Source: Halobaculum magnesiiphilum (GTDB lineage Archaea > Halobacteriota > Halobacteria > Halobacteriales > Haloferacaceae). From it: a DNA stretch of 64,000 nucleotides. The stretch lies in assembly GCF_019823105.1 (NCBI RefSeq), contig NZ_CP081958.1, positions 186,001 to 250,000 on the forward strand. Direction: 5' to 3'. The notes under the pieces were generated by a model that saw nothing but the letters and a program-made list of their open reading frames with translations, was not told the origin of the DNA and did not search any database. Shown piece after piece: positions 60,425 to 64,000 of the stretch. A program made the position numbers and the translations under genes. Every line of letters begins with the position of its first letter. The first letter of the stretch is position 1.

Positions 60425-61417
60425 ATGGTCACGTTCCTCGCCGGCGGCACCGGCACGCCGAAGCTCCTCGACGGCGCCGCGGGCGTGTTCGATCCCGCCG
60501 AGACGACCGTCGTCGGGAACACCGGCGACGACGTGGAGATCGGCGGCCACCTCGTGTGCCCGGACGTGGACACGGTGTTGTTCCACGGCGGCGGCGTCCT
60601 CGACACGGAGCGGTGGTGGGGGATCGCCGACGACACGACCGAGACTCACGAGGAACTCGAACGACTCGCCGACGCCGCGGGCCTCGACGCCGGCCCGCGC
60701 TACCTCCCAGAGGAGGCACAGATAACGGGCCGAGAGATCGCTCGGTGGCGTCGCTTCTCGGGCGTCGCGGAGTTCATGGAGATCGGGGACCGCGACCGCG
60801 CGGTCCACGTCACGCGCACCTCGCTGCTCGACGAGGGACGCTCGCTCACCGCGGTCACGCGAACGCTCGCCGAGGCGTTCGACCTCGACGTCGACCTGAT
60901 CCCGATGAGCGACGACCCCGTCGCCACGATCGTTCACACCGAGGACGGGTCGATGCACTTTCAGGAGTACTGGGTCGCACAGCGCGGCGAGCCCGCCGTG
61001 GAGGACGTCGAGTTCCGCGGAAGCGACGCGGCCGAGCCGACCGACGCCGTCCGCGCGGCCCTCCGCGACGAGGTGGTTATCGGCCCGTCGAACCCGGTCA
61101 CGAGCATCGGCCCGATGCTCGCGCTCGAGGGCGTCCGCGAGGCGCTCGCGGGGACGAGCGTCGTCGCCGTCTCGCCGTTCGTCGAGGACCGCGTGTTCTC
61201 CGGCCCGGCGGCCGACCTCATGCGCGGCGTCGGTCGCGAGCCGAGCACCGCGGGCGTCGCCGACGCGTACCCGTTCGCCGACGCGTTCGTGCTCGACGAC
61301 GCGGACGGAACCGACCTCGACCGGCCGGTCGTCCGCACCGATACGCGGATCGACGAGGCCGACGACGCCGAGCGAGTCGCGCGCGCCTGCCGTGAGGCGC
61401 TGGAGGTGGTCGGGTGA
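60425..61417 (+). CDS. cofD: 2-phospho-L-lactate transferase (F420 biosynthesis)
   Basis: 330 residues. [18 protein letters not shown] (nucleotide loop), [19 protein letters not shown] and [17 protein letters not shown] match CofD. It joins lactyl-phospho-guanosine (from CofC) or a related donor to Fo, giving F420-0, the deazaflavin cofactor. A 4-base overlap (GTGA) leads into the Dus-like gene. cofC, cofE and cofGH are not in this window. Confidence 0.96.
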
Positions 61418-62283
61418 CCGGCGGCGACGCGGAACCGCCGGCGACCGTGGGGGCCGCCGAATCCGCGGCGACCGCCGCCGATCTGGGGTTAGACCCGCCC
61501 CTCGCGCTCGCGAGCCTCTCCGGGGAGTCGGACGCCGAGTGGGCGCGAGCCGGCGACGACTACGCCGGGGCGGCGTTCCTCGGAGGGATCGCGGTGGACG
61601 CGGAGAGCCGCGCGGCCGTTCGCGAGATGGTCGCCGACCGCGACCGCGACGAGTTCCTCCCCGATGACCCGCTCGCGTGGATCGACGACCAGCTCGACGC
61701 GCTCGTCGGATCCGCGGTCGACCTCCGCGCGGGGGTGAACGTCCGCGCGACGACCCCGACCGCGGTCCGCGACGCGGCCGCCGTCTGTGCCGACCACGGC
61801 GCGATCGTGGAGGTGAACGCCCACTGCCGACAGGCGGAGCTGTGTGCCGTCGGCTGCGGCGAGACGCTGCTTTCCGACACCGACCGCCTGTCGGAGTACG
61901 TCGCCACGGCGGCCGGGACCGGCGCCGACGTGAGCGTGAAGGTCCGCGCGGAGGTCCAGAGCGTGGATCTCGCCGAGGTCGCCGGCGCGGTCGCCGACGC
62001 CGGCGCCGACGCGATCCACGTCGACGCGATGGACTCCGAGGGCGTCGTCGGAGTCGTGAAGGACGCGGCGCCCGAACTGGTCGTGATCGCGAACAACGGC
62101 GTCCGCGGCCGGCGGACGGTCCGCGAGTACCTCGCGGCCAGCGCCGACGCGGTGAGCGTCGGCCGCCCGAGCGACGCCGAGCGCGTGCTCCGTCGGGTTC
62201 GGGCGGCGGTCGACGAGTGGACCGACGAGGCCGAACAGCCGGGGGTCGCCGCCGAAGCGGGGCCGCCGGAGGTGGGACGGTGA
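61414..62283 (+). CDS. TIM-barrel protein related to dihydrouridine synthase
   Basis: 289 residues from [23 protein letters not shown] resembles the catalytic-Cys region of dihydrouridine synthases (N-x-x-C). [20 protein letters not shown] and [18 protein letters not shown] fit the flavin-binding barrel strands. The sequence is shorter than true Dus and lacks a C-terminal tRNA-binding domain, so tRNA as substrate is doubtful. It is sandwiched between cofD and a CitG-like gene with 4-base overlaps on both sides. Confidence 0.8.
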
Positions 62284-63173
62284 CCGACCCTGGCCCCGTC
62301 ACGGACGCACCACGGCGCGGCCCGGCGGCCAACGCCGAACTCGCGCTGCTGCTGGAGGTCGCCGGGACGCCCAAACCGGGCAACGTCGACCGGGCACGCG
62401 ACCTCGCGGCCCTGCGGTTCGAGCACTTCCTCGCGGGCGCCGTCGGCGCCCGGCCGGGGTTGGAGCGCGCGGCCGCCGGCGACCCGGTCGGCGTGGCGTT
62501 CGAGACGGCCGTCGCCGGCATGAGCGAGCAGTCCGGCGGCAACACGCAGTTCGGCTGTCTCCTCCTGTTGACGCCGCTCGTGCGCGCGGCCGCGGCCGAG
62601 GACCGCGCGCTCTCGCCCGACGGCGTCGCCGCGGTTTGCGAGGGCACGACCGTCGACGACGCCGCGGGCTTCTACCGCGCGTTCGAGCGCGTCGACGTGG
62701 CGGTCTCCGACCCACCCGAGGGAATGGACGCCCTCGACGTGCGCCGCGGCGCCGACGCGGTGCCGGCGCTGCGCGAGCGCGGGACGACGCTGTTCGACGT
62801 GATGCGCGAGTCGGCCGCGCCGGTCGACGACCGGGGACCCCCCGGCGACGCGAACGCCCGCGAGTGGGTCGCAGGGTTCCCCCGGACGTTCCGCGCGGCC
62901 GAAGCGATCGCCGCCGACAACGGCCCGATCGTCGACCGTGCGGCCCGCGCGTTCCTCGACCTGCTCGCGGAGACGGAGGACACCCTCGTGCGGACACAGC
63001 ACGGTCCCGATGTCGCCCGCGAGGTGCGCGACCGGGCCGGGGAGATCGACTCGCTCGACGGGGCGGCGGCGTGGGCCGACGAGTTGGTCGAGCGCGGGAT
63101 CAACCCCGGGACGACCGCCGACGTCACGGCGGCGGCGCTGTTCGTCGCGCTCGAACGCGGGGTGTCGGTGTGA
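62280..63173 (+). CDS. CitG-like triphosphoribosyl-dephospho-CoA synthase homologue
   Basis: 297 residues from GTG. ELALLLEVAGTPKPGNVDRA and EQSGGNTQFGCLLLLTPLVR are CitG/MdcB signatures (KPGxV, then NTxxG). ELVERGINPGTTADVTAAAL is the C-terminal nucleotide motif. Bacterial CitG makes the prosthetic group of citrate lyase. No citrate lyase or malonate decarboxylase is nearby, so here it probably makes a different phosphoribosyl-type product. GTGA overlaps on both sides. Confidence 0.88.
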   Translation: MTDPGPVTDAPRRGPAANAELALLLEVAGTPKPGNVDRARDLAALRFEHFLAGAVGARPGLERAAAGDPVGVAFETAVAGMSEQSGGNTQFGCLLLLTPLVRAAAAEDRALSPDGVAAVCEGTTVDDAAGFYRAFERVDVAVSDPPEGMDALDVRRGADAVPALRERGTTLFDVMRESAAPVDDRGPPGDANAREWVAGFPRTFRAAEAIAADNGPIVDRAARAFLDLLAETEDTLVRTQHGPDVAREVRDRAGEIDSLDGAAAWADELVERGINPGTTADVTAAALFVALERGVSV

Positions 63174-63910
63174 CCGACGCCCCCGCCGGAGGCAACGGCG
63201 ACAGCGACGACAACGGCGACGACAACGCGGCGGTCGACTGGCCCGTCAATCTGACGGGCGTCACCGAGTCGGTGGTCGCGACCCTCGGCCCGAACGGGCT
63301 GTGGAACCTCGCCGCGCTCGGTCTCCACGCCCCCGAACACGACGGCCGACCCGCGGACGCGCCGGTGCGCGCGCGGACCTGGGGGCGGACGCGGACGCGA
63401 CGCAACTTCACGGAGCGCGGCGGCGGCGTCGTCCAGTTCGTCGCCGACCCGCGCGACTTCGTCGACGCCGCGGCGACGGTCCGCGAGGAGGGCGAGCCGG
63501 TGCTCGACTCGGCGGACGCGTGGGTCGAAGTCGAGGTCGAACGCGTCGACGCCGGCGAGCGCGGCGGCACCGAGTGGGTCGACTGGCACCTGTACGTGAC
63601 CGACGCCGCGGTCGAACGGACGGCCGTGCGGACGATCAACCGGGGGTTCGGCGCGGTGATCGACGCGACGGTCGCCGCCTCCCGGCTGGACGTGCCGGCG
63701 TACGACACCGGGGAGCTGCTGGCGCGGCTCCGATACTTCGCGGACGTTGTCGACCGCTGCGGCGGTCCCGCCGAGCGCGATGCGTTCGAGCGACTGCGCG
63801 AGGCGAGCGGGTGGGAGAGTCGAGACCACGGCGACGACGCCGACGGCGGGAACCGAGATGGCGGCCGGGGCGACGGGCACCGCGACGGCGACGACGCGAA
63901 CGGACGGTAG
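63170..63910 (+). CDS. DUF447-family protein (FMN-binding split-barrel-like)
   Basis: 246 residues from GTG. The core (about 24-215) has NLTGVTESVVATLGPNGLWN and NLAALGLHAPEHDG at the N-terminal strand. RARTWGRTRTRRNFTERGGG and VVQFVADPRDFVDAA follow, then RTAVRTINRGFGAVIDATVA. DUF447 proteins are reported to have an FMN-binding split-barrel fold. The C-terminal 35 residues are low-complexity Asp/Gly/Arg. Last gene of the cofD operon. Function unknown. Confidence 0.9.
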   Translation: MTDAPAGGNGDSDDNGDDNAAVDWPVNLTGVTESVVATLGPNGLWNLAALGLHAPEHDGRPADAPVRARTWGRTRTRRNFTERGGGVVQFVADPRDFVDAAATVREEGEPVLDSADAWVEVEVERVDAGERGGTEWVDWHLYVTDAAVERTAVRTINRGFGAVIDATVAASRLDVPAYDTGELLARLRYFADVVDRCGGPAERDAFERLREASGWESRDHGDDADGGNRDGGRGDGHRDGDDANGR

Positions 63911-63974: not shown

Positions 63975-64000
63975 ATGGCGATCAAACCGAAGTACGTCAA
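63975..64000 (+). CDS. rps17e: 30S ribosomal protein S17e, first codons only
   Basis: Only MAIKPKYVK is visible before the window ends. This N-terminus is the invariant start of haloarchaeal S17e, and the preceding TATA-like box is appropriately placed. The call rests on nine residues. Confidence 0.7.

Follow-up and report, generated by a model that had tools for sequence, protein, structure and literature searches.

A haloarchaeal operon that probably joins F420 synthesis to an H4MPT-type pterin used by Mer and split methionine synthase

The genome of Halobaculum magnesiiphilum (NCBI RefSeq GCF_019823105.1) carries on contig NZ_CP081958.1 a four-gene operon at positions 60,425-63,910 of the window, by which we mean the whole 64,000-nt stretch of forward strand that was analysed (contig positions 186,001-250,000). 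The genes, their junctions and the downstream neighbour are, in window coordinates:

60,425-61,417, forward strand: cofD, 2-phospho-L-lactate transferase (F420 synthesis), 330 aa, ATG start (TIGR01819, PF01933)
61,414-61,417, forward strand: GTGA overlap of the cofD stop and the Dus-like start (from the sequence)
61,414-62,283, forward strand: Dus-like TIM-barrel flavoprotein, MJ0144/TIGR00736-like, 289 aa, GTG start (PF01207, TIGR00736)
62,280-62,283, forward strand: GTGA overlap of the Dus-like stop and the citG start (from the sequence)
62,280-63,173, forward strand: citG homologue, methanopterin type, 297 aa, GTG start (PF01874)
63,170-63,173, forward strand: GTGA overlap of the citG stop and the DUF447 start (from the sequence)
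63,170-63,910, forward strand: DUF447 protein, 246 aa, GTG start (PF04289, PF20766)
63,975-64,000, forward strand: ribosomal protein S17e gene, downstream neighbour, 5' start only (window edge)

The four genes are joined by three GTGA overlaps, as the preliminary description had stated, each GTG start lying inside the GTGA that holds the stop of the preceding gene. That description had also allowed that the gene order might not be conserved; instead, the order cofD-Dus-like-citG-DUF447 recurs in distant archaea, in genome G001 (locus L049) and in four euryarchaeal MAGs from bogs and fens (L100, L102, L103, L104), and is more than chance. The stoichiometric coupling of the four products suggested in that description may follow from the overlaps. 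CofD scores 390 bits against the F420_cofD equivalog TIGR01819, above its cut-off of 257. The family call of the Dus-like protein is weaker than those of the other three proteins; it exceeds the Pfam cut-off for the Dus domain (PF01207, 25.4 bits against 20.4) and lies below that of the MJ0144 family (TIGR00736, 117 bits against 219), and its PF01207 alignment reaches no further than position 220 of the 311 in the profile, leaving the C-terminal helical RNA-binding part of Dus unmatched. The homologue in genome G008 has 242 aa and ends 11 residues past its profile match. CitG matches PF01874 (E 4e-59), carries the invariant motifs KPGN.DR, N.xFG and NPGT.AD-type in the alignment, and has a predicted structure (pLDDT 91) with the all-helical fold of PDB 3h9p. 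The DUF447 protein matches PF04289 and PF20766, both above cut-off, and its best fold matches are the FMN-bound DUF447 structures 2IML, 2NR4 and 2PTF, with 3B5M as a further relative; it shares the split-barrel fold of these relatives, is predicted by analogy with them to bind FMN, and has a C-terminal tail rich in acidic residues. Literature searches on DUF447 together with CitG, and on the methylotroph orfs, returned nothing useful.

The distribution of these families across haloarchaea divides the operon. CitG, beta-RFAP synthase and Mer are each missing from exactly three of 155 haloarchaeal genomes (G008, G049 and G104), one of C(155,3) = 608,685 possible sets of three, and DUF447, scored in 28 haloarchaeal genomes, is missing from the same three only; since these genomes represent at least two loss events, both within one family, the co-loss counts overstate independence. 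None of the three has an intact split methionine synthase, the enzyme that uses the pterin: there is a lone MetE catalytic core and no N subunit in G008 and G049, and a MetE N-like protein without the catalytic core in G104; the N subunit is present in the other 24/24 genomes tested, all of which have the core. Mch, scored in the same 155 genomes and found in every one, is universal in haloarchaea and gave no signal as a pathway marker. All three genomes keep cofD, and the Dus-like gene stays beside it with the S17e gene downstream, in spite of the loss of citG and DUF447; conversely, genome G017 is without the Dus-like gene and has the other genes. We therefore reject the Dus-like protein as a third member of the pterin unit; it probably serves the cofD side. 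In the phyletic profile, CitG and DUF447 track together, and CofD and the Dus-like protein do not follow them. The operon falls into two halves: cofD and the adjoining Dus-like gene lie in or next to F420 synthesis, and citG and DUF447 are part of the H4MPT pathway.

The same association is seen in gene order. In genus g102, mer-citG-DUF447-betaRFAPS form a run with 4-bp overlaps, divergent from split metE, and a Halobellus limi plasmid carries mer-DUF447-betaRFAPS-metE_N-metE_core with npdG divergent. At the named methanogen loci, citG lies directly upstream of DUF447 in 74/79, an order that the methanogenesis marker 9-citG-DUF447 locus shares with the haloarchaeal operon. A Dus/MMP9 gene lies upstream in 57/79. 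The Dus-like protein of methanogens exceeds the haloarchaeal one in length and has a TIGR03277 domain that the latter is without. Among control genomes, DUF447 and beta-RFAP synthase matches fall in the same 4/14, and S. acidocaldarius has CitG, DUF447 and beta-RFAP synthase; a sample of archaeal phyla likewise shows CitG and DUF447 in the company of beta-RFAP synthase. Bacteria were sampled via plasmids, because a profile scan of genome contigs for DUF447 gave archaeal matches only; across 72,556 plasmids, CitG and DUF447 co-occur on an identical 35, and beta-RFAP synthase is on 35/35. Methylotrophic proteobacteria carry an H4MPT/dephospho-H4MPT island with mch-orf5-orf7-fae-orf17 and related islands (PMC3615186, PMC8141765). 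The Phyllobacterium H4MPT island holds CitG (of the same subfamily), DUF447, beta-RFAP synthase and mch, which bears out the earlier statement that CitG and DUF447 homologues occur in methylotroph-type H4MPT clusters, and its citG sits between an orf5-type RimK ligase and fae, the position of orf7. The methylotroph island differs in that it serves to oxidise formaldehyde, together with mtdB, fae and fhc, none of which was seen at the haloarchaeal loci examined, and the annotated Phyllobacterium cluster is without Mer. Both the distribution of the genes and their order show that CitG and DUF447 belong to one unit together with beta-RFAP synthase, the F420-dependent Mer and split MetE; an H4MPT-type role of the two proteins in general is very probable.

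In haloarchaea, the best explanation of the operon as a whole is probably that it provides F420 and an H4MPT-type pterin that feed Mer and MetE. Such a pterin is a folate-like one-carbon carrier with a C-linked ribose in place of benzoate. CofD acts in F420 synthesis, and CitG with DUF447 would act on the side chain of the pterin, so that the operon would make parts of two cofactors needed by one enzyme. Beta-RFAP synthase would couple pABA and PRPP; DUF447 would carry out a flavin-dependent reduction, most likely of the ribofuranosyl ring to ribityl; and CitG would transfer an alpha-ribosyl (tri)phosphate to the terminal ribityl hydroxyl, with ATP (as in CitG) or PRPP as donor. Mer with reduced F420 would then yield the methyl-pterin, whose methyl group split MetE would pass to homocysteine, giving methionine. 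As the alpha-ribosyltransferase of the pterin side chain CitG is a reasonably good candidate, while ring opening by DUF447 is a tentative proposal; a role for DUF447 as the final dihydro-to-tetrahydro reductase is less likely, because the Phyllobacterium island already has a DmrB/AfpA-type flavoprotein.

Folates have been found in published analyses of halobacteria. According to Pfeiffer and Dyall-Smith, haloarchaea use tetrahydrofolate, methanopterin-specific enzymes are absent and the beta-RFAP synthase homologue HVO_2628 probably does not catalyse the beta-RFAP synthase reaction (PMC8305020), and split MetE has been predicted to use methyl-THF or another methyl pterin (PMC7857596). The Mer (HVO_1937), HVO_2628 and split MetE of these studies belong to the same families as our co-loss set; there, tetrahydrofolate is assumed or the pterin is left open, and CitG, DUF447 and their joint loss and linkage are not mentioned. 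In the source genome, beta-RFAP synthase exceeds the subfamily cut-off of TIGR00144 (154.7 bits against 113.5) and falls short under the stricter equivalog NF040726 (162 bits against 328). Haloarchaeal sequences at large are similarly divergent, at about 150-190 bits, beneath the NCBIfam equivalog cut-off of 328. Residue D19 (MTH0830 numbering) is replaced, by N in most haloarchaeal sequences and by T in g102; the D19N variant of MTH0830 has partial activity left (PMC6787355). R26, the pABA-binding Arg of MTH0830 (PMC6787355), is kept in 6/6 haloarchaeal sequences, the HVGLGSGT (PRPP) loop is conserved, and haloarchaeal Mer retains the catalytic Glu (for its role, see PMC11094777). On balance, it is likely that an H4MPT-type pterin is made in haloarchaea and used there by Mer and MetE.

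The divergence of beta-RFAP synthase and the replacement of D19 would also suit a different C-ribosyl pterin/aminobenzene compound, that is, a folate-methanopterin hybrid that arose by a substrate shift since the methanogen ancestor and that Mer and MetE still use. Mch must accept folate in the three genomes that keep it without the pathway, and a folate/methanopterin hybrid in Sulfolobales, the group in which S. acidocaldarius has all three genes, is cited in PMC3261824. Against a hybrid, the conserved Arg and PRPP loop of beta-RFAP synthase and the conserved CitG core make the methanopterin side chain the simplest product, and we regard a hybrid as rather unlikely.

Far less probable is a new F420 derivative, as the preliminary description proposed, in which CitG would (phospho)ribosylate F420 or Fo, and the product would be altered by the two flavoproteins. 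The overlap with cofD in the operon and the placement of cofD beside citG in several families speak for it, but the genomes that lost citG and DUF447 retain cofD, the pair having been lost together with beta-RFAP synthase and Mer instead, and in the bacterial islands citG and DUF447 stand in the company of H4MPT genes, where the annotated cluster lacks cofD. We therefore reject an F420-linked or deazaflavin compound and keep the other part of that proposal, the placement of CitG and DUF447 in an unassigned cofactor branch; as beta-RFAP synthase and Mer were lost with them while cofD and the Dus-like gene were kept, the branch is that of a methanopterin-type pterin. A relic gene order, in which the genes merely share a promoter without joint function, is just as improbable. 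It would fit the retention of the Dus-like gene without citG and the unlinking of cofD from citG in most methanogen loci (cofD within 10 kb in 8/79, and first in four). However, citG and DUF447 are linked at nearly all loci, and pairings of F420 genes with pterin genes take three distinct forms, namely cofD-citG-DUF447, cofE-mer (adjoining in G000 and G238) and npdG-mer. What ties the F420 half to the pterin half is function, since Mer requires each of the two cofactors. Least credible of all is that CitG modifies dephospho-CoA in the usual way, as a triphosphoribosyltransferase serving citrate lyase or malonate decarboxylase: the protein shares PF01874, the all-helical fold and the core motifs with CitG/MdcB, but it scores 17.8 bits against the citrate lyase equivalog (cut-off 272.3) and 23.9 bits against that of malonate decarboxylase (MdcB, 282.35), the branch leading to E. 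coli CitG has a length of 5.3 changes per site, no genes for either enzyme lie next to citG at the locus, the archaeal loci examined have no tie to citrate lyase, and the presence of CitG tracks beta-RFAP synthase; the citrate lyase assignment is rejected on scores and distribution.

The preferred reading, an operon for F420 and an H4MPT-type pterin, extends to a broader one that we hold with a little less than even confidence: most haloarchaea may have a second, methanopterin-type carrier for methionine via Mer and split MetE, and CitG-like and DUF447 proteins may be the ribosyltransferase and the flavin-dependent side-chain reductase in archaea and methylotrophs alike. To our knowledge, no enzyme has been assigned to the alpha-ribosyl and ring-opening steps of methanopterin synthesis, and candidates for both can now be named in a genetically tractable aerobe. 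The finding challenges the idea of folate as the sole carrier in haloarchaea, and archaeal CitG annotations as a citrate lyase enzyme would need correcting. It would also explain the puzzling beta-RFAP synthase homologue of haloarchaea and would give a reason for the retention of F420 in these aerobic organisms.

Sequence analysis confirms the operon at 60425-63910 on the forward strand (cofD, a Dus-like gene, citG and DUF447): its four reading frames, joined by three GTGA overlaps, match the preliminary description, whose observation of the operon was sound. The host is a haloarchaeal genome of 3.73 Mb (G000), of which the window spans C1:186001-250000, and the next gene downstream of the operon encodes ribosomal protein S17e. 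In profile searches, CofD scores above its equivalog cut-off, the Dus-like TIM barrel falls below the MJ0144 cut-off with the C-terminal part of Dus unmatched, CitG belongs to PF01874 and the DUF447 protein carries both DUF447 domains. Conservation of the gene order, proposed earlier as a refuting test, is borne out in other haloarchaea (loci L054, L055), in a genome of another family (G001, L049) and in four euryarchaeal MAGs from bogs and fens (L100, L102, L103, L104); in Natrinema, three small genes interrupt the operon. Outside haloarchaea the Dus-like protein is ~370-380 aa long (L049, L100-L104), and at L049 the C-terminal part of this long form is a methanogenesis marker 9 domain. Of 79 named methanogen loci, 74 have citG immediately upstream of DUF447, and a contig end cuts three more.

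The families were scored in one common set of 147 phylum genomes, followed by a set of 155 from the haloarchaeal order. Three of the 155 lack CitG: G008 and G049, which belong to one genus, and G104, from a second genus in which the other members carry it. Exactly the same three lack beta-RFAP synthase (beta-RFAPS) and, at the curated cut-off, the F420-dependent methylene-tetrahydromethanopterin reductase Mer, and they alone lack DUF447 among the 28 haloarchaea of the phylum sample, while CofD, the Dus-like gene and Mch are all retained. Their assemblies are rated 99% complete, and one is a single contig. The locus itself persists in all three, with cofD and the Dus-like gene followed by S17e and asd; only citG-DUF447 is gone in G008 and G049, and in G104 a deoxyhypusine-synthase-like frame fills the gap. 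Three genomes can be picked from 155 in 608,685 ways, only one of which gives this set; the figure is not readable as a probability, because the three genomes represent at least two loss events. The undescribed cofactor branch first suggested, perhaps for a phosphoribosyl- or deazaflavin/FMN-linked compound, was right in kind but wrong in target: CitG and DUF447 are lost with beta-RFAPS and Mer, and CofD is kept, pointing to a methanopterin-type pterin. The Dus-like protein, which stays beside cofD in the three genomes and is without the RNA-binding region of Dus, could, at a guess, serve an F420-side reduction. The Dus-like gene is absent from another haloarchaeon, G017 (L039), whose Mch and beta-RFAPS rank first or near the top in divergence among the haloarchaea scored.

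Older analyses of halobacteria reportedly found folates. Haloarchaea have been argued to use folate only (PMC8305020). Since Mch persists where the pathway is missing, it must use folate in those genomes. The haloarchaeal product may be a folate-methanopterin hybrid.

A methanopterin-type assignment is also consistent with bacterial tetrahydromethanopterin (H4MPT) islands. A Phyllobacterium plasmid carries a complete island with beta-RFAPS, mch, fhc, fae, CitG, DUF447, a DUF6513 protein and a DmrB/AfpA-type flavoprotein. A scan of 72,556 plasmids finds bacterial DUF447 on 35 records from ten genera; bacterial CitG of this subfamily is on exactly those 35, and every one of them also encodes beta-RFAPS. 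Its location with respect to mch, orf5 and fae suggests that the island CitG is methylotroph Orf7 (PMC3615186); in the open-access literature, we found no paper stating what CitG or DUF447 catalyses in the H4MPT pathway. Four rhizobial plasmids (NZ_AP023260.1, NZ_AP017989.1, NZ_CP147998.1, NZ_CP050093.1) encode a member of the beta-RFAPS family but neither CitG nor DUF447; it may serve to make a C-nucleoside. Sixteen methanogen loci (L126, L134 and 14 others), mostly of Methanolinea-type genomes, have a diverged TIGR00144-like protein (52-69 bits) no more than a few kb from DUF447.

Methanopterin has a ribityl group derived from a C-linked ribofuranosyl and an alpha-linked ribose at its end, and CitG transfers an alpha-linked triphosphoribosyl group from ATP to a hydroxyl of dephospho-CoA. 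Because the two chemistries match, CitG is, by analogy, the leading candidate to attach the alpha-ribosyl unit of a methanopterin-type side chain. Its core motifs are invariant across the archaeal alignment, and its structure model (pLDDT 91) has one good PDB match, the archaeal relative 3h9p. DUF447 relatives have been crystallised with FMN (2IML, 2NR4, 2PTF), and another, 3B5M, comes from the planctomycete Rhodopirellula. DUF447 might open a ring in the pterin side chain, a role that we tentatively favour over the final reduction, given that a DmrB-type flavoprotein is separately encoded in the Phyllobacterium island. In haloarchaeal beta-RFAPS, the pABA-binding Arg and the PRPP loop are conserved, whereas D19 is replaced (residues as in PMC6787355), and haloarchaeal Mer keeps the catalytic Glu near the chain start (PMC11094777).

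Gene neighbourhoods also connect these families with methionine synthesis. In haloarchaeal genus g102, mer-citG-DUF447-betaRFAPS form an operon with 4-bp overlaps, divergent from the genes of split MetE, a methionine synthase made of an N subunit and a catalytic core. On a plasmid of Halobellus limi, of another family, npdG is divergent from mer-DUF447-betaRFAPS-metE_N-metE_core. cofE adjoins mer in G000 and G238, matching Haloferax HVO_1936 and HVO_1937, which are adjacent by number (PMC8305020). The g102-type cluster occurs twice in G221 (L033 on C8, L034 on C2), and a third split MetE pair lies on C3 of that genome. Split MetE is predicted from its domains to use methyl-THF or another methyl pterin (PMC7857596). 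Of 27 genomes tested, 24 carry the N subunit; in G008 and G049 it is absent and the catalytic core stands alone, and G104 has a diverged N-like protein and no catalytic core above threshold. The three genomes that lost the pterin genes thus each have a broken pterin-dependent methionine synthase. The G104 protein (L178:7034-7981, C3), 47% identical to the G000 N subunit, could be a relic or have acquired a new function, and the lone core adjoins ATP synthase genes in G049 (L179:4619-5704) and G008 (L087). A second, bacterial-like, full-length MetE is present in the haloarchaeon G084 (C3:1488093-1489061, 508 bits); Haloquadratum walsbyi is reported to have one as well (PMC7857596). The CitG-DUF447 unit is a predicted methanopterin-type pterin branch, tied to F420 via Mer and to methionine via split MetE.
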